A DNA stretch of 64,000 nucleotides from Halolamina pelagica (GTDB taxonomy: Archaea > Halobacteriota > Halobacteria > Halobacteriales > Haloferacaceae), in assembly GCF_900115675.1 (NCBI RefSeq), contig NZ_FOXI01000004.1:124001-188000 (forward strand). Direction: 5' to 3'. The position numbers and the translations under genes are program-made. Positions 18,823 through 32,664 of this stretch are shown here, one piece after another. Below the pieces are notes generated by a model, which searched no databases, was not told where the DNA came from, and saw only the letters and a program-made list of their open reading frames with translations. Each line of letters begins with the position of its first letter. Position 1 is the first letter of the stretch.

Positions 18823-19007
18823 CTGTCTGTATGAGTTTGAGAACGGTAGGCCGAGCCGTTACTCCAAGTTCTCACGTCGCCATTATGAACGCTACGACTG
18901 CCCAGCAGAGACCGCACCGTGACTCCCATCGGAAAGCGTCTGTCGGTCCACCGGCTTCGATTGCCCTTCGACAAGGACTAGGCGCCGGAGTATCCAGTTG
19001 CTCTCGA

Positions 19008-20549
19008 ATGGCGGTAAACCTCGACGATGCGTTCGAGAAACTGTTCAAAGGGGGTGGGATACTCTTCTTTGGCCTCGTCGTCGAGCTCGGGGTCTCCTTC
19101 CTCGCGAAAGCACTCATCGCCCGGTATCTGGGACCGTCCAACTACGGCGCCGTTTCGCTGGGAATCACGATGCTCGCCCTCCTTTCGACGCTGTCGCTTC
19201 TCGGACTCAACACCGGGGTCGGCAGATACCTCCCCCGGTTCGATGACGAGTCCGACCGCCGAGGCGTGATGTGGTCGGCGTTCCAGATCGTCCTCCCTGT
19301 TTCGGTGTTGGTGGGGGTGATCGTCGCCGTCTCGGCGGAGCCGATCGCCACGTACGCGTTCCATAACCCCTCGATCGTCCCGATCATTCGAACGTTCGGC
19401 CTCACGGTCCCGTTCGCGGCGTTGATGAAACTCTCCGTCGGTGGCATTCAGGGGGTCCAGTTGGCGAGACCGAAGGTCATCGTCAACAACTTCACGCCGC
19501 CGATAACACGGTTCACCGCCGTGGCCATCGCCCTCGTAGTCGGTGCGGGTGCCGTCGGCATCGCGACAGCGTACGCGCTCGCGTACGTCGCGGCCGCGCT
19601 GGTCGGCTTGTACTTCGTAGTTCGAAAGACCCCGATGTTTTCGAGCGTGAAACCGACATCGATGCACCGTGAACTCCTCTCGTTTTCGGCCCCGCTCATC
19701 GTGAGCAGCGCCATGGGGTTCGTCCTGACGGATCTGGACACCTTCATGCTCGGGTACTTTGCGACGACGAACGCGGTCGGGGTTTACAACGTCATATACC
19801 CGCTCGCTCACCTTCTGATGGCCGCCTTGACGGCGTTCGGCTTCCTCTTCGTCCCGGTGATATCCCGGCTGGACGCCGAAGGCGAGACGGAGGACATGAA
19901 ACGAGTTTATCAAGTCGTGACGAAGTGGATCTTCATGGCCACGCTGCCCGCGTTCCTGGTCATCGCGCTGTTCCCCGAACTCACCATCTCGATGACGTTC
20001 GGGAACGAGTACCGCGTCGGTGCAACCGCGCTGTCGATCCTCTCCATCGCCTTCTTCTCGCATTCGATCGCCGGACCGAACGCGAACGTCCTCACGTCCA
20101 TCGGGCGGACCCGCGCGATCATGTGGGACAACATCGTCGTCGCGGTCGTCAACACGATCCTGAACCTCCTACTCATACCGCGCTACGGCTTCCTCGGAGC
20201 CGGGATCGCGACCGCCGCATCGTATCTCCTACTGAACTTTCTCTACTCCCTGCAGCTCTACCGCGAAACGGGGATCCACCCGTTCTCGTCGGGGCTCGTC
20301 CGCCCCGGTCTCATGGGGGGAGGCCTCGTCGCGGTCGTCGCTTGGGTCACTCGAACGTACTTCACCGTCACCATCCCGGTGCTCGTTGCGATGTTCCTCG
20401 TGTTCCTCTCCGCGTACGGGGTCGTCATCCTCCGCTTTGGCGGCGTCGAGGAGGAGGAGGTCACCCTCGTGCTGAGCTTCGAGGAGCAGTTCGGGATCGA
20501 CTTGGGACCGTTCAAGACGATCGCGAAAGCCCTGATCAAGGACCGGTGA
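19008..20549 (+). CDS. Lipid-linked oligosaccharide flippase (Wzx/MATE family, AglR-like)
   Basis: A 513-residue membrane protein with about 12-14 hydrophobic segments and the polysaccharide-flippase signature at the N-terminus (GGGILFFGLVVELGVSFLAKALIARYLGPSNYG read in parts; YLGPSNYGAVSLG is the key piece). The start at 19008 (MAVNLDDAFEK) is chosen because the 59 residues encoded upstream are polar, non-conserved and contain no membrane signal. It probably moves the dolichyl-phosphate glycan across the membrane for AglB. A soluble tail of about 30 residues ends in KALIKDR. It is convergent with glmS. Confidence 0.83.
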   Translation: MAVNLDDAFEKLFKGGGILFFGLVVELGVSFLAKALIARYLGPSNYGAVSLGITMLALLSTLSLLGLNTGVGRYLPRFDDESDRRGVMWSAFQIVLPVSVLVGVIVAVSAEPIATYAFHNPSIVPIIRTFGLTVPFAALMKLSVGGIQGVQLARPKVIVNNFTPPITRFTAVAIALVVGAGAVGIATAYALAYVAAALVGLYFVVRKTPMFSSVKPTSMHRELLSFSAPLIVSSAMGFVLTDLDTFMLGYFATTNAVGVYNVIYPLAHLLMAALTAFGFLFVPVISRLDAEGETEDMKRVYQVVTKWIFMATLPAFLVIALFPELTISMTFGNEYRVGATALSILSIAFFSHSIAGPNANVLTSIGRTRAIMWDNIVVAVVNTILNLLLIPRYGFLGAGIATAASYLLLNFLYSLQLYRETGIHPFSSGLVRPGLMGGGLVAVVAWVTRTYFTVTIPVLVAMFLVFLSAYGVVILRFGGVEEEEVTLVLSFEEQFGIDLGPFKTIAKALIKDR

Positions 20550-20693: not shown

Positions 20694-22513
20694 TCACTCG
20701 ACGGTGACGCTCTTCGCCAGGTTCCGGGGCTTGTCGATACTCCGCCCCTTCAGGTCGGCCACATGGTAACTGAACAGCTGGAAGTACACGTTCGCCACCA
20801 GCGGTTCCATCTCCCCCAACTCCGGTACCGGGAACGACTCGTCGACGAACTTGCTTGCATCCCGATGATCGTCGGAGACGGCACCCAACACGGGCGCCCC
20901 ACGGGACTCGACCTCCTTGACGTTGTTCAGCGTCTCCTCGGCGTTCGACCCCGCCGTCAGAACCGCCAGTACCGGCGTATTCGGCGTCACTAACGCCAAC
21001 GGACCGTGTTTGAGTTCGCCCGCTGGGAACCCCTCTGCGTGGTCGTAGCTGATCCCCTTCAGCTTCAGCGCGCCCTCCAGCGCGACCGGGGCACCGAGCC
21101 ATCGACCGAGGAAGAAGAACGCATCACCGTCGGCGTACGTCACCGGGGCCTCCCGGACCTCGGCCTCAGCGTCCAAGGCCTGCTGGACGGCCCCAGGGAG
21201 GCCGCGAACGTCTTCCAGCAGGCTCCGCGCCTCCGAAGGGGAGATCACGTCGCGTCGTCGACCGACGTGGACCGCGAGGAGCGCCATCGTCGCCACCTGT
21301 GAGCAGAACGTCTTGGTGGCGGCGACGCCGATCTCGGGACCGGCACGGATGAACACCGTGTCGTCGGCCTCGCGCGTGATCGTGCTCCCGAGGGTGTTCG
21401 TGACTGCGAGCGTCCGCGCGCCCGCGAGATCCGCTTTTCGAAGTGCGGAGAGCGTGTCCGCGGTCTCACCGCTCTGCGTGACCGCGACCACGAGCGTCCG
21501 CCACGGGCCCGGCCGCTGCCGAACTCGTACTCCGAGGCGATTTCGACCGACGTGCGCACGTCGGCGTGGGCCTCGAACAGTTCCGCGGCGTACAGCCCGG
21601 CGTGGTAGGACGTGCCAGCAGCGACAAACTGGATCTCATCCACCGACTGGAGGTACTCGGTCGGGAGGTCGACTTCGAGATCCACTTCGCCTTTCATCTC
21701 GTCGACGCGACCCGACAGGGCCTGCCGGAGCGCCTGTGGCTGCTCGTGGATCTCTTTGAGCATGTAGTGGTCGTAGCCACCCTTCTCGGCGGCTTCGGCC
21801 TCCCACTCGATCTCCTCGACTTCGCGGTCGACGACCTCGCCATCCTCGTAGGTGGTGGTCCCGTCGTCGGTGACGTGAACCACGTCGCCGTCCTGCACGT
21901 AGCTCACCCGCCGCGGGTGCTCGAGAAACGCCGTCACGTCGCTCGCGAGGAACGTACCGTGCTCGGCCGGCCCGTCCACGAGCGGACTGTCCTTGCGTGC
22001 GGCGACGATACCCTCGTGCCCGTCCGCGACGACGCAGATCGCGAAACTCCCCGAAAGCTCCTCGACGACGTGCTCGACCGCCTCGACGAGCGACTCGTCG
22101 GCGGCCAGCCGCTCCTCGACCAGATGGGGGACGACCTCGGTGTCGGTTTCGCTGGTGAACGTGTGACCCCGATCTTCGAGTTCGGTCTTCAGCGTATCGC
22201 AGTTCTCGATGATCCCGTTGTGAACGACCGCGACCTCCCCCGACTCGTCGGTGTGGGGATGCGCGTTCGCGTTCGTCGGCTCGCCGTGGGTTGACCACCG
22301 TGTGTGCCCGATCCCACCGGTTGCCGGGGCGTCGGCCGGGAGCACCTCGCGGAGCGCCGAGAGTTCGCCCGCCCGCTTGTACACGTCGAGACCGTTCTCG
22401 TTCTGGAGCGCGATCCCCGCGGAGTCGTAGCCGCGGTACTCCAGGTTCACCAGCCCCTCGGTCAGGATCGGGAGCGCCTGTTCCTCGCCGAAGTAGCCGA
22501 TGATGCCACACAT
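20694..22513 (-). pseudogene. glmS: Glutamine:fructose-6-phosphate aminotransferase, broken by a one-base frameshift
   Basis: Together the two frames encode a normal-length GlmS of about 606 residues. The N-terminal glutaminase domain starts MCGIIGYFGEE with Cys2 as nucleophile, then HTRWSTHGEPTN and HNGIIEN. Two SIS domains follow (VAAGTSYHAGLYAAELF; AVTQSGETADTLSALRKAD) and the end is PRNLAKSVTVE. The frame breaks near 21508-21510. Restoring one base in a short C-run (plus strand) rejoins EYEFGSGR to GPWRTLVVAVTQSG without loss. GlmS makes glucosamine-6-phosphate for UDP-GlcNAc, needed by the nonulosonate and N-glycan genes here. An assembly error is a strong alternative to true gene death, since the enzyme is usually essential for amino-sugar supply. 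Confidence 0.85.
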
Positions 22514-25194: not shown

Positions 25195-28100
25195 ATGAGT
25201 TCGCGCAGCGAAAGTGACGACTTACTCCAGTCACTCCGCCGTACGGCAACTGACTGGTATCACGTCCCCGCGCTCCTCCTCGCGATGGCGTGGATGTTCT
25301 GGGTGCGGATGCAGAACTACTCGAACTTCCTCCGAAACGGGGAGGTATACTTCTCCGGTAACGACGCCTGGTACCACCTCCGGGAGACGAACTACATCGT
25401 CCGGAACTTCCCGTCCTCCATGCCGTACGACATCTGGACCGGTTTCCCGATCGGGAACTTCGTCGGCCAGTTCGGGACCCTCTACGACCAACTGATCGCA
25501 CTCGTCGCTCTCGTCATCGGCCTCGGTTCCCCGACCGACACCCTCATCGCCAAGACCCTCCTCGTCGCACCGGCAGTGTTCGGTGCGCTGGCCGTCATCC
25601 CTGTCTACTTCATCGGCAAACGCTTCAGCAGCCGTATCGGGGGGCTGTTCGGTGTCTTCCTTCTCGCACTCCTGCCCGGGCTGTTCCTCCAGCGGACGCT
25701 CGTCGGGGCCGCCGACCACAACGCGGCCGAGCCGTTCTTCATGGGGCTGGCGATGGCCGGGATGTTCGGTGCCGTCGCGGCCGCCCAGCGCACCACTCCC
25801 GTTTGGGAGGTGGTCCGCGAGGAGCTGTTCGAATCCCGTGAGATCGATACGCTCCGGGAGCCGCTCGCGTGGTCGCTCGCCGCCGGGTTCCTCTTCGGGC
25901 TGTTCATCTGGACGTGGCCGCCCGCTGTGTTCCTCGTCGGGATCGTCGGCCTGTTCCTGGTCGTGAACGTCACCACGGACGTCGTTCACAGCAACACACC
26001 GGAGCCGGTTTCGTTCGCGGTGGCCGTGTCGATGCTCGTCACCGCGCTGATGAGCCTTCTCGCGATCGATACGTTCGGCTTCTCGACGAACGTGCTCTCG
26101 CTCCTCCAACCGCTCGCAGCTCTCGCGGTCGCTGGGGCCGCGGTAGGCCTCTCTTGGCTCGCGCGCTTCTGGGAAGGGGAGGAGCGTCCTGCCTCCCAGT
26201 TCCCGGCTGTCGTCGCGGGGCTCGGGATCGTCGGTGTCGCTCTCGTCGCGTTGCTCTTGGGGAGCGCTTACGACCTCGTCGCCTCCAACCTCCTCCGGAT
26301 CGTCGGCTTCAGCGCCGACGCCGCCACCCGAACCATCTCCGAGGCTCAGCCGTTCATCAGCCCGACCTCGATCCAGCAGTACGGGCTCAACTCCGCCTCC
26401 GAGCGCGTCGTGATGGAGTACGGGATCACGTTCTTCACCGCGGTCCTTGGTGTCGTGCTCATGCACGCTCGGCCCCTGCTCCGGAAGGGGACCCAGCGCG
26501 CCTACACCTACCTCGGCGGGAGCCTCGTGATCACCGCGCTGATCTTCCTGACGCCGCTGCCGAGCGTCGTCGGCGGCGCCGTCGGCATTGACCAGCAGGT
26601 GCTCGGCCTCCTGATCGTCGCCGTGCTCCTCGCCGGCGCGCCGCTGGTCGCCGAGTACGAGGCGACCGACCTGCTGTTCGTGGTCTGGGCCGCGTTCCTC
26701 ACCTCGATGGCGTTCACCCAAATCCGCTTCAACTACTACCTCGCGGTCGTCGTCGTCGTCGCGAACGCGTACCTGTTCGCGCGCGTGCTCGACTACATCG
26801 ACGTCGACGCCGCGCTCGCGGCGGCCGACCTCGAGGCCCGCACGATCGGGTTCGCGACGGTCCCGGTCGTGTTCGGGCTGCTCCTGCTCGACCAGACGCT
26901 CGCGGCGATCGTCGTCGCCGCAGCCGTCCTGGTCTCGGCGATCATGTTCGTCGATGAACTCGAGGGTCACCAAGTGCTCACCATCGCCGCCGTCCTCCTG
27001 CTCGTCGCCGCGCCGGTCCTCGCGGTCCCGGTCACGCTCGGCGGCTCGGCCCAGAGTGGCGGGACGCAGACGGCCACCTCGGTCCAGACCGGCAACAGCA
27101 CCGGTCCGGGCGCGGTACTCGCGTGGGAAGGGACGTTCGACTGGATGCAGAACAACACGCCCGAGGAGGGGAACCTCGGCGGCGCCGGTAACGCCGACCG
27201 GATGGAGTACTACGGCGCCTACGAGCGGACTGACGACTTCGAGTACCCCGAGGGTGCCTACGGCGTGATGTCCTGGTGGGACTACGGCCACTGGATCACC
27301 ACCCAGAGCGAGCGGATCCCGAACGCCAACCCGTTCCAGCAGGGCGCGACCAACGCGGCGAACTACCTCCTCGCGCCCAACGAGAGCCAGGCCCAGGCGG
27401 TTCTCGACCGCCGCGCCCAACCGGGTGAGGAGACCCGCTACGTCATGGTCGACTACCAGATGGCCTCGGTCACCTCGAAGTTCAGCGCGCCGGTGACGTT
27501 CTACGACGACGAGAACGTCTCCTACGGCGACTTCGCGGAGCGCGTGTACAGCCTCCAGGAGACCGAGCGCGGCACGTTCGTCGACAGGAGCTCGCAGGTG
27601 TACGAGCAGCGCTACTACGACAGCCTGATGGTGCGGCTCTACCGCTACCACGGCTCCGCACAGGAGGCCCAGCCGATCGTCGTCGACTGGGAGACCCGCG
27701 AACTGACTGCCGCCGACGGCAGCACGGTCGAGGTCCGGACCGTCGGCGACAACGAGTCGATGGTCAAGCGCTTCCCCAACATGACCGCGGCCGAGGAGTA
27801 CGTCGAGGAGGACGGCAGCGCCCAGATCGGCGGGGTCGGGCCGTTCCCGAGCGAGGACGTGCCCGCGCTGGAGCACTACCGGCTGGCGAAGGCCAGCGAG
27901 GCACAGAACCGGAACTTCCAGCTGAACGACCGGCGCCAGGCCGCGATGGCGGGCGACCAGCTCTACGGGCTGATCTATCAGTCCACGAGTACGACGCCCT
28001 CGTGGGTGAAGACGTTCGAGAAGGTGCCCGGCGCGACCGTCGAGGGCTCCGGGGCGCCCGCGAACACCGAGGTGACCGCCTCGGTCGAGATGCGGATGCC

Positions 28101-28590
28101 GAGTTCGGACGGGACGTTCGTCTACACGCAGCACGCCGAGACGAACGCGGACGGCGAGTTCACGCTGACGCTGCCGTACTCGACGACGGGCTACGACGAG
28201 TTCGGCCCGGAGAACGGCTACACGAACGTGAGCGTCCGCGCGAACGGGAGCTACACGGTCACGACGCCGTCGACGACCAACGAGTCCGGCTACGCGATCC
28301 AGTACGGACAGGAGTTCAACCTCTCGGAGGGGAAGGTGCTGGGCGTCGACGAGGAGCCCAAGCAGATCACCCTCGAGGAGCGCACGCAGGCGCCGGAGGG
28401 CGCCCAGAACGGCTCCGACGCCGGCGGGAACGACACCAACACCAGCAGCCTGACCGCGCCTGACTCGTTCACCGCGGACTCGACGGACGGCAGCGGTGAG
28501 TTCTCGGCGGACGCCGGGAGCGTGGACGGGCCGACGACGAACGAGCTCTCGACTGACGCGCTCGGACCGGCTGCTCGCGTGACGAACTGA
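25195..28590 (+). CDS. aglB: Oligosaccharyltransferase AglB (STT3 family)
   Basis: A 1131-residue protein that moves the lipid-linked glycan onto Asn of exported proteins at the outer face. There are about 13 N-terminal membrane segments. The first extracellular loop carries SGNDAWYHLRETNY, whose Asp57 belongs to the metal site; GAADHNAAEPF is the second acidic motif. The peptide-binding WWDYGHW lies at about 694-700. A large Asp/Glu-rich exterior domain ends in a carbohydrate-binding-like beta region and a Thr/Ser-rich tail. The ATG at 25195 is preferred over one six codons earlier because of promoter spacing. The stop overlaps the next start, coupling it to DUF368. Confidence 0.95.
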   Translation: MSSRSESDDLLQSLRRTATDWYHVPALLLAMAWMFWVRMQNYSNFLRNGEVYFSGNDAWYHLRETNYIVRNFPSSMPYDIWTGFPIGNFVGQFGTLYDQLIALVALVIGLGSPTDTLIAKTLLVAPAVFGALAVIPVYFIGKRFSSRIGGLFGVFLLALLPGLFLQRTLVGAADHNAAEPFFMGLAMAGMFGAVAAAQRTTPVWEVVREELFESREIDTLREPLAWSLAAGFLFGLFIWTWPPAVFLVGIVGLFLVVNVTTDVVHSNTPEPVSFAVAVSMLVTALMSLLAIDTFGFSTNVLSLLQPLAALAVAGAAVGLSWLARFWEGEERPASQFPAVVAGLGIVGVALVALLLGSAYDLVASNLLRIVGFSADAATRTISEAQPFISPTSIQQYGLNSASERVVMEYGITFFTAVLGVVLMHARPLLRKGTQRAYTYLGGSLVITALIFLTPLPSVVGGAVGIDQQVLGLLIVAVLLAGAPLVAEYEATDLLFVVWAAFLTSMAFTQIRFNYYLAVVVVVANAYLFARVLDYIDVDAALAAADLEARTIGFATVPVVFGLLLLDQTLAAIVVAAAVLVSAIMFVDELEGHQVLTIAAVLLLVAAPVLAVPVTLGGSAQSGGTQTATSVQTGNSTGPGAVLAWEGTFDWMQNNTPEEGNLGGAGNADRMEYYGAYERTDDFEYPEGAYGVMSWWDYGHWITTQSERIPNANPFQQGATNAANYLLAPNESQAQAVLDRRAQPGEETRYVMVDYQMASVTSKFSAPVTFYDDENVSYGDFAERVYSLQETERGTFVDRSSQVYEQRYYDSLMVRLYRYHGSAQEAQPIVVDWETRELTAADGSTVEVRTVGDNESMVKRFPNMTAAEEYVEEDGSAQIGGVGPFPSEDVPALEHYRLAKASEAQNRNFQLNDRRQAAMAGDQLYGLIYQSTSTTPSWVKTFEKVPGATVEGSGAPANTEVTASVEMRMPSSDGTFVYTQHAETNADGEFTLTLPYSTTGYDEFGPENGYTNVSVRANGSYTVTTPSTTNESGYAIQYGQEFNLSEGKVLGVDEEPKQITLEERTQAPEGAQNGSDAGGNDTNTSSLTAPDSFTADSTDGSGEFSADAGSVDGPTTNELSTDALGPAARVTN

Positions 28591-29534
28591 TGCGCGGACG
28601 GGAGTCCCTGGGCGTCTACCTCCGCGGGATCGTGATGGGCGCCGCCGACGCGGTGCCCGGCGTCTCGGGGGGGACCATCGCGCTGCTGACCGGCATCTAC
28701 CCCCGGTTGATCGCCGCCATCACCGCCGTCGAACCGGACCGACTGCTCAACATCGCGGCGGCGCCGCTGCCGGCCCGCCGGGCCGACGCCGTCGACGCGT
28801 TCCGAGAGATCGACGGGTCCTTTCTCGCCGCGCTGGGGCTGGGGATCGCGACCGCGCTCGTCACCGTCTCGCGCGTGCTCGAGCACGCGATGGCCGCCTA
28901 CCCCGCGGCGACGTTCGGCGGGTTCTTCGGCTTCATCGGCGCCTCCGCGTGGCTGCTACGCGGCGAGATGCGGTTCGACACCCGCGACCAGCAGGCCGCC
29001 GCAGTTGCCGGGTTCGCCGTTGCCTTCCTGCTCTCCGGGCAGGCGGAGGGGGCGCTGGGACACAGCCCCGTCGTGACTTTCCTCGCCGGGACGGTGGCAG
29101 TGAGTGCGATGATTCTCCCGGGGGTCTCGGGATCGCTACTCCTGCTCCTGCTGGGGCAGTACGCCTACATGATCGATCACCTGAATGCGTTCATCGATGC
29201 GCTCCTCGCAGTCGCACGTGGCGGCACAGTTGCGCTCCCGCCGGGGACGCCGACAATCGTCACGTTCCTCGCGGGCGCGGTCGTCGGCCTGTTTACGGTC
29301 GCACACGCGGTCCGGTGGGCGCTCGACCGCGGGAGGGCGGCAACGATGACGTTCCTCGTCGCGCTGGTCGTCGGCGCGCTCCGGGCGCCGGTCGTCCAGA
29401 CTGGCCAGCGACTCGAGGCCGGATGGTCCCCGGCAGCGATCGGCCTGTTCGCCGTCGCGGCGGTCGTCGGCGCCGCCGTCGTCATCGGGATCGAGTGGGC
29501 GACGAGCGGGGAGATGGTGACGCCAGACGCGTAG
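28590..29534 (+). CDS. DUF368 membrane protein, probable polyprenyl-phosphate transporter
   Basis: A 314-residue integral membrane protein with about eight to ten helices. The N-terminal signature is GAADAVPGVSGGTIALLTGIY, with a second internal copy MILPGVSGSLLLLLLGQY, the inverted-repeat pair typical of DUF368. Bacterial members have been shown to return undecaprenyl phosphate to the cytoplasmic face. Here the natural cargo would be dolichyl phosphate released by AglB. The start overlaps the aglB stop by one base (TGATG). A truncated second copy of its last 90 codons lies at 30.4-30.7 kb. Confidence 0.88.
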   Translation: MRGRESLGVYLRGIVMGAADAVPGVSGGTIALLTGIYPRLIAAITAVEPDRLLNIAAAPLPARRADAVDAFREIDGSFLAALGLGIATALVTVSRVLEHAMAAYPAATFGGFFGFIGASAWLLRGEMRFDTRDQQAAAVAGFAVAFLLSGQAEGALGHSPVVTFLAGTVAVSAMILPGVSGSLLLLLLGQYAYMIDHLNAFIDALLAVARGGTVALPPGTPTIVTFLAGAVVGLFTVAHAVRWALDRGRAATMTFLVALVVGALRAPVVQTGQRLEAGWSPAAIGLFAVAAVVGAAVVIGIEWATSGEMVTPDA

Positions 29535-30394
29535 GCGTCCCCGCATCGCGGGAAGTGCTTGGCCCAAGCGATTGCTGGTGCGGGTGTTTCGGTGCCTACC
29601 GCCACAGCAACGGCCACCGTCCCTCCGAGTGTGGCCTGTGCGCCACACAGCGGTGACGGCGGCTGGTGCAGCGAACTACAGAGCTGGGCACATCCGCAAC
29701 AACCGCCTTGGCGGCACAGCGTACAAGCCACGCGCAGCGCCGCTCCAGCGATGCCGTGGTGTCCCCGTGAGAATCACGGTGTGAGGGAACTGGTCAGCCG
29801 CCATCGCACGACGACCTACTGGCTGGCCGCCATCGCGCTCCGTCCGACTGTCTTCCGGCACACCGCCTGCAGCCCGCTGTCTGGTGATGCTGTCGTCGTG
29901 TGACTGCTCCCGCACTGGCGATTCAGCGAGTCAGGACTGGGCGTCGACGACCGAGCACCGCTCAAGCCACGCATGCCCATCGACGAGTAGGAGACCGGAG
30001 ATGATCCACGCTGTTTCAGCCTCGCTGTGCCCGGCGCATAGTGACGAATTGCCAGCAGTTACGGGTCTGTAGTTCGTCCAGTGTCGAACTCGTAGACGCG
30101 GCGCCGTGTCGGCCGGCAGTGGTCCGATCGCGATCGCTGCCCTCTTTGACTGGTCGCTACGCGGCCCGGCGGTTGGCTTTCAGTCTCGCCGCTGGAGTGG
30201 TTCACTCTGCTCACTCGCTGCTCCGGTATTCATCACGACGCAGACTGCCTACAGCTGTCTCGAACGGGTGTTTTCCGGACTGATGACCGTCTGTAGTTTC
30301 TTTAGGGGACGTCGAACGAGAGCGCGACAACGTGGGACGGCCGGTTCAGGGTTGACGAGGAACCCGCTGACTGTCGGTCCAGCCTCATCGCGAT
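29535..30394. other. Gene-poor, decayed stretch
   Basis: About 860 bases with no complete gene that I can support. Frames in it are short or lack starts. Composition is less strongly GC-biased at third positions than in genes on either side. It separates an intact DUF368 gene from a truncated second copy, consistent with duplication and decay or loss of inserted DNA. Confidence 0.55.
29931..30180 (-). pseudogene. Possible remnant of a protein-coding gene, no start codon
   Basis: An 82-codon stretch is open between two stops on the minus strand with no ATG, GTG or convincing start. Its C-terminal part (AGHSEAETAWIISGLLLVDG, then HAWLERCSVVDAQS) looks protein-like, but I recognise no family. 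It may be the 3' end of a decayed gene, or chance. Confidence 0.2.
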
Positions 30395-30664
30395 CATCAC
30401 CTCCTTGCGGGCGACGTCTTCGGGCTGTTCACCGGCTCCCACGGCGTAAAGTGGACACTCGCGCTTCGCCGGGCGGCGACGATGACGTTCCTCGTCGCAT
30501 TGGTCGTCGGCGCGCTCCGGGCGCCGGTGGTGCAGACGGCGACGCGCCTCGAAGCCGGCTGGACCCCGACTGCGCTCGGTAGCTTCGCCGCGGCAGCGGT
30601 CGTCGTCGCCGCCGTGGTCGTCGCCGCCGACTGGGCCGCTGGCGGCGAGGCGATCGACATCTGA
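30395..30664 (+). pseudogene. 5'-truncated second DUF368 copy
   Basis: The last 85 or so codons of a DUF368 gene are readable in one frame: LAGDVFGLFTGSHGVKWTLA, then ATMTFLVALVVGALRAPVVQ, TRLEAGWTPTALG and a stop at 30662-30664. The intact neighbour has the aligned segments LAGAVVGLFTVAHAV, ATMTFLVALVVGALRAPVVQ and QRLEAGWSPAAIG. Identity is near complete in the middle and diverged at both ends, so this is an old tandem paralogue or partial duplicate rather than a recent copy. The N-terminal two thirds, including both PGVSG motifs, are gone. Confidence 0.75.
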
Positions 30665-30735: not shown

Positions 30736-32664
30736 ATGAGCGAAATCACGGTCGTGCTGCCGGACGGGTCGGAGCTCTCCGTCCCCGAGGACGCCACGGT
30801 CGAGGACGCCGCCTACGAGATCGGTCCCGGGCTCGGGGACGACACCGTCGCGGGCGTCGTCGACGGCGAACTCGTCGCCAAGGAGGACCAACTCCACGAC
30901 GGCGCTCGGCTCGAAATCGTTACCGACCAGTCCGACGAGTACCTGGACGTGCTGCGTCACTCCGCGGCCCACGTGTTCGCGCAGGCGCTGCAGCGCATCC
31001 ATCCCGAGGCGAAGCTCACCATCGGCCCTTCGACCGACGACGGGTTCTACTACGACGTGACGAACGTCGACCTCGACGACGACGACCTCGACGCCATCGA
31101 GGCGGAGATGGCGGAGATCATCGAGGCCGACTACGAGATCGAGCGGCTCGAACGCTCCCGGGAGGAGGCGTTCGAGCAGTACGCGGACAACCGGTTCAAA
31201 CGCGAGATCCTCGAGGAGGAGGCCGGCGACGCCGAGACGGTCAGCTTCTACCGCCAGGACGGCTGGGAGGACCTCTGTCAGGGCCCACACGTCGAATCCA
31301 CCGGGGAGATCGGCGCCGTCGAACTGCTCAACATCTCCTCGGCGTACTGGCGCGGCGACGAGGAGAACGAGTCGCTCACCCGAGTCTACGGCACGGCCTT
31401 CGAGTCCGAGTCCGACCTCGAGGAGTACCTCGAGATGCTCGACGAGGCCGAGGAGCGCGACCACCGCCGCATCGGCAAGGAGATGGACCTGTTCTCCGTG
31501 CCGGACCACTCGCCGGGCTGTGTCCACTTCCACCCGCCGGGGATGACCATCCGACGGGAACTCGAGGAGTACATCCGGGAGAAGAACGACGAGCTCGGCT
31601 ACGACGAGGTGTGGACGCCCGAACTCAACAAGGCCGAACTCTGGAAGCCCACGGGCCACTACGACAACTTCACCGAGAACGGCGAGATGTTCAACTGGGA
31701 GCAGGACGACACCGAGTACGGCCTGAAGCCGATGAACTGCGCGAACCACGCGCACGTGTTCGACACGTCGAGCCACTCCTACCGCGACCTCCCGATCCGG
31801 CTCTCGGAGTTCGGCACCTGCTACCGCAACGAGCAGTCCGGCGAGCTCTCGGGGATGCTCCGCGTGCGCGGGTTCACGCAGGACGACGGCCACGCGTTCA
31901 TCCGTCCCGACCAGATCGAGCAGGAGATCCGGAGCACCCTCGGCGTCGTCAAGGAGATTTACGAGGACTTCGGCTTCGACATCGGCTACAAGCTCGAGAC
32001 CCAGGGCGACAACGCGGTCGGCTCCGACGAGATGTGGGACGACGCCACCGAGTCGCTGGAGGCCGCGCTCTCGGGTGAGGGGCTCGACTACGAGATCGAG
32101 GCCGGCGAAGCCGCCTTCTACGGGCCGAAGATCGCCATCGACGCCGAGGACGCAATCGGGCGCCAGTGGACCGTCGGCACCGTCCAACTCGACTTCAACA
32201 TCCCGCGCCGGCTCGAACTCACCTACGTTGGCGAGGACAACGACGAGCACTACCCCGTGATGGTCCACCGCGCGCTGCTGGGCTCCTTCGAGCGGTTCAT
32301 GGGGGTCCTGATCGAGCACTTCAAGGGCCGGTTCCCGCTCTGGCTCGCGCCCGAGCAGGTGCGCATCCTGCCCGTCTCCGACGACGCGCTGGGCTACGCC
32401 CACCGCGTGAAGAACGACCTCGACGACTTCCGCGTCGAGGTGGAGGACCGCGACTGGACCGTCGGCCGGAAGATCCGCGAGGCCCACGACGACCGCGTGC
32501 CCTACATGATCATCGTCGGGAGTGACGAGGAGGAGGCCGGCACCATCTCGGTCCGCGACCGCTACGAGCGCGAGGCCGACGACATCGACCCCGAGGCGTT
32601 CCGCGAGTACCTCGAAGCCGAGCGTGAGGAGAAGCGCCTCGAGCCGGACTTCCTCGAGGAGTAA
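30736..32664 (+). CDS. thrS: Threonyl-tRNA synthetase
   Basis: A 642-residue class II aminoacyl-tRNA synthetase of the full bacterial-like layout. It has a TGS domain (residues 1-65), an editing domain with [11 protein letters not shown] and its Zn-type His pair, the catalytic core ([29 protein letters not shown] with the zinc Cys; [19 protein letters not shown]; the motif 3 region [15 protein letters not shown]), and a C-terminal anticodon-binding domain ([18 protein letters not shown]). The ATG at 30736 follows a short gap after the truncated DUF368. It is convergent with a 49-residue membrane protein, three bases or fewer apart. All key motifs appear intact. Confidence 0.97.

Follow-up and report, generated by a model that had tools for sequence, protein, structure and literature searches.

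The closest described relatives of the gene discussed here encode the PopT/VCA0040 undecaprenyl-phosphate translocases of Vibrio cholerae and Staphylococcus aureus, members of the Pfam family DUF368 (PF04018). The same transport step has been proposed in bacteria for the UptA-type DedA proteins, which belong to another family (PF09335), and in bacterial DedA/DUF368 mutants undecaprenyl phosphate builds up on the outside (PMC12826051). An archaeal member has been expressed in V. cholerae by Sit et al., where HVO_RS12060 of Haloferax volcanii gave at least partial complementation of a delta-vca0040 mutant (PMC9876793). The oligosaccharyltransferase AglB of H. volcanii works from dolichol phosphate, the carrier on which its glycans are built (PMC3871713), and is encoded by HVO_RS12050 (PMC5131992). 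As these two tags are only two apart, the complementing protein is the aglB-linked DUF368 of that organism. In the published listing aglF, aglI, aglG and aglB carry the consecutive tags RS12035-RS12050, the published agl cluster ends at aglM (PMC5867893), and RS12055, the tag between aglB and DUF368, is presumably aglM. The proximity of aglB and DUF368 is mentioned neither in the complementation paper (PMC9876793) nor in the Haloferax cluster paper (PMC5867893). Our literature search retrieved no paper linking DUF368 to aglB and no archaeal DUF368 biochemistry or deletion, and the archaeal N-glycosylation papers examined assign no gene to the return of dolichyl phosphate to the cytoplasmic side. 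Synteny work on PopT by Roney and Rudner lay outside this search, leaving prior publication possible; the abstract of their study of PopT/UptA reportedly mentions syntenic analyses.

Within the window (the whole 64,000-nucleotide stretch of Halolamina pelagica DNA that was analysed) aglB lies on the forward strand at 25195-28590 (ORF 25177/25195-28590, ATG at 25195) and encodes a 1131 aa archaeal oligosaccharyltransferase of the STT3/AglB, archaeosortase-A-associated type. The protein scored 874 bits against TIGR04154, the archaeosortase-associated AglB model (cut-off 450), and has matches to PF02516 (STT3, 85 bits), PF22627 and PF18079 covering the AglB core and AglB_L1. With the catalytic WWDYG motif it combines the STT3 domain, AglB core and WWDxG motif by which we recognised AglB. 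The gene that follows on the same strand (28590-29534) encodes a 314 aa PopT/VCA0040-like protein, a predicted polyprenyl-phosphate transporter. Its score against PF04018 was 209.6 bits, far over the gathering cut-off of 26, which bears out the family given in the original prediction. Against the NCBIfam transporter equivalogs NF052563 and NF052564 it reached 79 and 172 bits, below the cut-offs of 400, and we therefore claim only the Pfam family for it and not the equivalog name. As in PopT/VCA0040, which has PGxSGGT and PGxSG motifs, the protein consists of two homologous membrane halves with one conserved motif each, PGVSGGT at residues 23-29 and PGVSGS at residues 177-182, within which P23, G24, S26, G27 and T29 and P177, G178, S180 and G181 are invariant. 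The halves align to each other (hhalign probability 98.7, E 3.8e-15), indicating an internal duplication, and an AF2 model (pLDDT 93.3) predicts a helix break at each PGxSG motif. No relative was found among solved structures by sequence or by fold, so there is no mechanistic template. The gene is the single full-length PF04018 member of its genome, in which four DedA-domain matches are encoded elsewhere and not beside aglB. It differs from its bacterial counterparts in that the archaeal carrier is dolichyl phosphate and in being tied to aglB rather than to cell-wall functions.

The two genes overlap at 28588-28592 (forward strand) in a TGATG within the sequence gaacTGATGcgc, the aglB stop codon TGA (28588-28590) and the DUF368 start codon ATG (28590-28592) having one base, the A, in common. 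The overlap had been predicted, and both genes lie exactly where they were placed. HVO_RS12060, of the same archaeal class and family and two tags from aglB, differs in having one tag between it and aglB. It had further been claimed that the overlap gives stoichiometric production of both proteins, which does not follow from one shared base: overlaps of 1 or 4 bases occur in a minority of linked loci (13 of the 46 others, with automatic start choice) and about half of the pairs, no more, abut within 10 nt (spacing of -4 to +10 nt in 25/47, again with automatic start choice). Three of the 47 linked pairs are interrupted by an AglM-like UDP-glucose dehydrogenase gene, which shares their strand in one genome and lies on the opposite one in the other two, so that the pair is not always co-transcribed. 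A scan of the aglB/DUF368 junction for promoters and terminators, using a bacterial promoter model, returned nothing above chance.

To place the pair in a wider context we utilized an order sample of 60 genomes, 53 of which have both genes (including one with the genes split between contigs, which was resolved for the count). In 47 of the 53, spanning 12 families, the two lay side by side or were separated by a single gene, and in 6 they were unlinked; all 13 further Halobacteria with both genes were linked, giving 60 of 66 in total. The window locus is among the linked ones, DUF368 lying within one gene downstream of aglB, and the pair was also identified in Haloferax, Halorubrum, Haladaptatus, Haloglomus, Halostagnicola, Natrinema and Halorhabdus in addition to Halolamina. 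The genomes counted are related, so these figures do not represent independent events, and comparison with other neighbours together with the tree is the better guide. The next most persistent genuine neighbour of aglB, mostly a divergent glycosyltransferase, was present in 19 of the 47 loci and 6 families. The thrS and aminotransferase genes downstream of the window pair are kept within the genus only, and outside the genus synteny is lost on both sides while the pair persists. The pairing of aglB and DUF368 in Halobacteria is not due to chance, and the recurrent linkage on which the original prediction had been made to depend was thus found.

A tree of 83 DUF368 proteins from haloarchaea, with methanogen and Thermoplasmata relatives as the root, has the linked copies at its base, and a single derived paralogue clade (support 96 %) holds 13 of the 17 unlinked ones. 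The pair is therefore most simply read from the tree as ancestral in Halobacteria. Natrinema and another genome of its group carry both kinds, and the remaining four unlinked copies are scattered, one of them in Halonotius roseus alongside a linked copy. In Haladaptatus pallidirubidus the intact chromosomal copy lies 3′ of aglB, and a plasmid carries a second, broken DUF368. It is a speculative extension, and one we consider unlikely, that the two kinds divide the work, the ancestral one being dedicated to AglB and the dispersed derived clade serving AglB-independent glycosylation (low-salt glycosylation, for example), with separate recycling of the carrier pools.

Outside Halobacteria the survey gave a different picture. 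DUF368 was missing from 103 of the 124 sampled genomes of the phylum, and among the other 21 direct adjacency to aglB was not seen. Six Thermoplasmata genomes carry the block aglB-AMMECR1-amidohydrolase-DUF368-inositol monophosphatase on one strand, with two genes between aglB and DUF368, and have kept it at 38-53 % AglB identity; in other Thermoplasmata with both genes these are far apart or on different contigs. The linkage within the block is real, but we do not count it as support specific to the pair since three further genes without an obvious connection are retained as well. Three genomes of a single family have DUF368 at a distance of 12-15 kb from aglB; these were also set aside, the whole region being syntenic and hence uninformative. 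One nearly complete haloarchaeon has AglB without DUF368. As many archaea with AglB lack it, DUF368 is a common partner of AglB which is neither obligatory nor universal.

We favour, with a probability of roughly 0.7, the reading that DUF368 acts as a polyprenyl-phosphate transporter and returns the dolichyl phosphate released by AglB to the inner leaflet. Once AglB has transferred the glycan, the bare monophosphate carrier stays outside. In the proposed cycle glycan transfer by AglB would release dolichyl phosphate on the outer leaflet, DUF368 would carry it back to the inner leaflet, and glycosyltransferases there would reload it. No phosphatase would be needed before flipping as haloarchaeal AglB works from a monophosphate carrier, and the two homologous halves, each with its PGxSG motif, would allow alternate opening to either side. 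We infer dolichyl phosphate, supplied mainly by AglB, as the natural substrate, together with inward transport and co-translation of the two proteins. The prediction of a carrier-recycling partner for AglB draws on the linkage, on the family, on the carrier chemistry, which agrees with the use of dolichol phosphate by AglB in H. volcanii (PMC3871713), and on cross-kingdom activity, as the aglB-linked H. volcanii protein partly complements the V. cholerae mutant (PMC9876793 and PMC5131992); it does not extend to a universal partnership, given the 103 genomes without DUF368. In the genetically tractable H. volcanii the linkage singles out one candidate gene for the return step, just past aglM, and a bacterial carrier-recycling family would extend to dolichyl-phosphate carriers, which are common to archaea and eukaryotes. 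Each of the 24 Halobacteria in the phylum sample encodes DedA-domain proteins, so the return step may be redundant and a single DUF368 deletion may look normal. An anticorrelation of DedA and DUF368 outside Halobacteria (DedA in 6 of the 21 genomes with DUF368 vs 47 of the 103 without) was considered and rejected as too weak.

Several external reactions in H. volcanii release dolichyl phosphate, and the organism has a second, AglB-independent N-glycosylation (PMC3871713). Together with the dispersed paralogues away from aglB this would suit a general recycler of dolichyl phosphate from all extracellular glycosyl transfers (AglS-type mannosylation, AglB-independent low-salt glycosylation and others), its position next to aglB reflecting shared regulation rather than a dedicated pairing; that AglB alone stays beside DUF368 over 12 families argues however against such a role, which we regard as unlikely though the most credible of the alternatives. 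A more improbable one is that the protein moves another lipid phosphate or aids salt and pH tolerance, affecting glycosylation indirectly if at all. In V. cholerae DUF368 is important when pH and sodium are high, and the authors of that study propose a high-salt role (PMC9876793), but carrier recycling itself accounts for the bacterial phenotypes and the retention beside aglB would be left unexplained.

The direction of transport could also be reversed, with DUF368 flipping the glycan-charged carrier outwards, since the haloarchaeal outward flippase is not firmly known (PMC4335974). We give this very little credence: the substrate of bacterial DUF368 is the uncharged carrier phosphate, and a Wzx/MATE-type protein encoded in the same cluster (18831-20549), comparable with AglR and Agl15 of H. 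volcanii (PMC3871713), is a candidate for flipping the charged carrier outwards. Equally improbable in our view is a frozen arrangement of no functional meaning. The single ancestral state in Halobacteria, the lack of direct adjacency seen outside and the Thermoplasmata block, with its three additional, apparently unrelated genes, speak for such an arrangement; against it, the pair persists outside the window's genus where flanking synteny is lost, and a second archaeal lineage keeps aglB and DUF368 within two genes of each other.

The window DUF368 gene itself appears to have a composite history. The segment 28945-30400 (approximate ends), comprising the 3′ two thirds of DUF368 and the spacer, is 89-94 % identical to a genome of the same genus (G006) vs 77-83 % to two others (G002 and G005) where alignable, and both flanks are closer to G002 and G005. 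Flush with the thrS leader lies a DUF368 remnant (30393-30650, forward strand) which is 84-86 % identical to the DUF368-thrS junction of G002, G005 and G004 and only 76 % to the intact window copy; G006 carries a similar remnant. The identity switch and the profile of the remnant most simply indicate that the intact gene is a recombination chimera, with a segment from a G006-like lineage, and that what remains ahead of thrS is the displaced 3′ end of the older, resident copy. This is an addition to the original prediction, which lacked it. The remnant was also considered as the mark of an integrated element, an idea that agrees less well with the identity profile than homologous recombination does.

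Elsewhere in the window a frame change near 21500 breaks a glmS copy of the glycosylation cluster (20694-22513, reverse strand) in two, through either decay or assembly error, and an intact glmS is present at another place in the genome (C33:23456-25249). Within thrS, positions 31445-32195 are 93-96 % identical to G002 and G005 and 64-74 % to another four genomes, while identity in the two flanks is 83-92 %; the two allele types in the genus look like a partial replacement of threonyl-tRNA synthetase.
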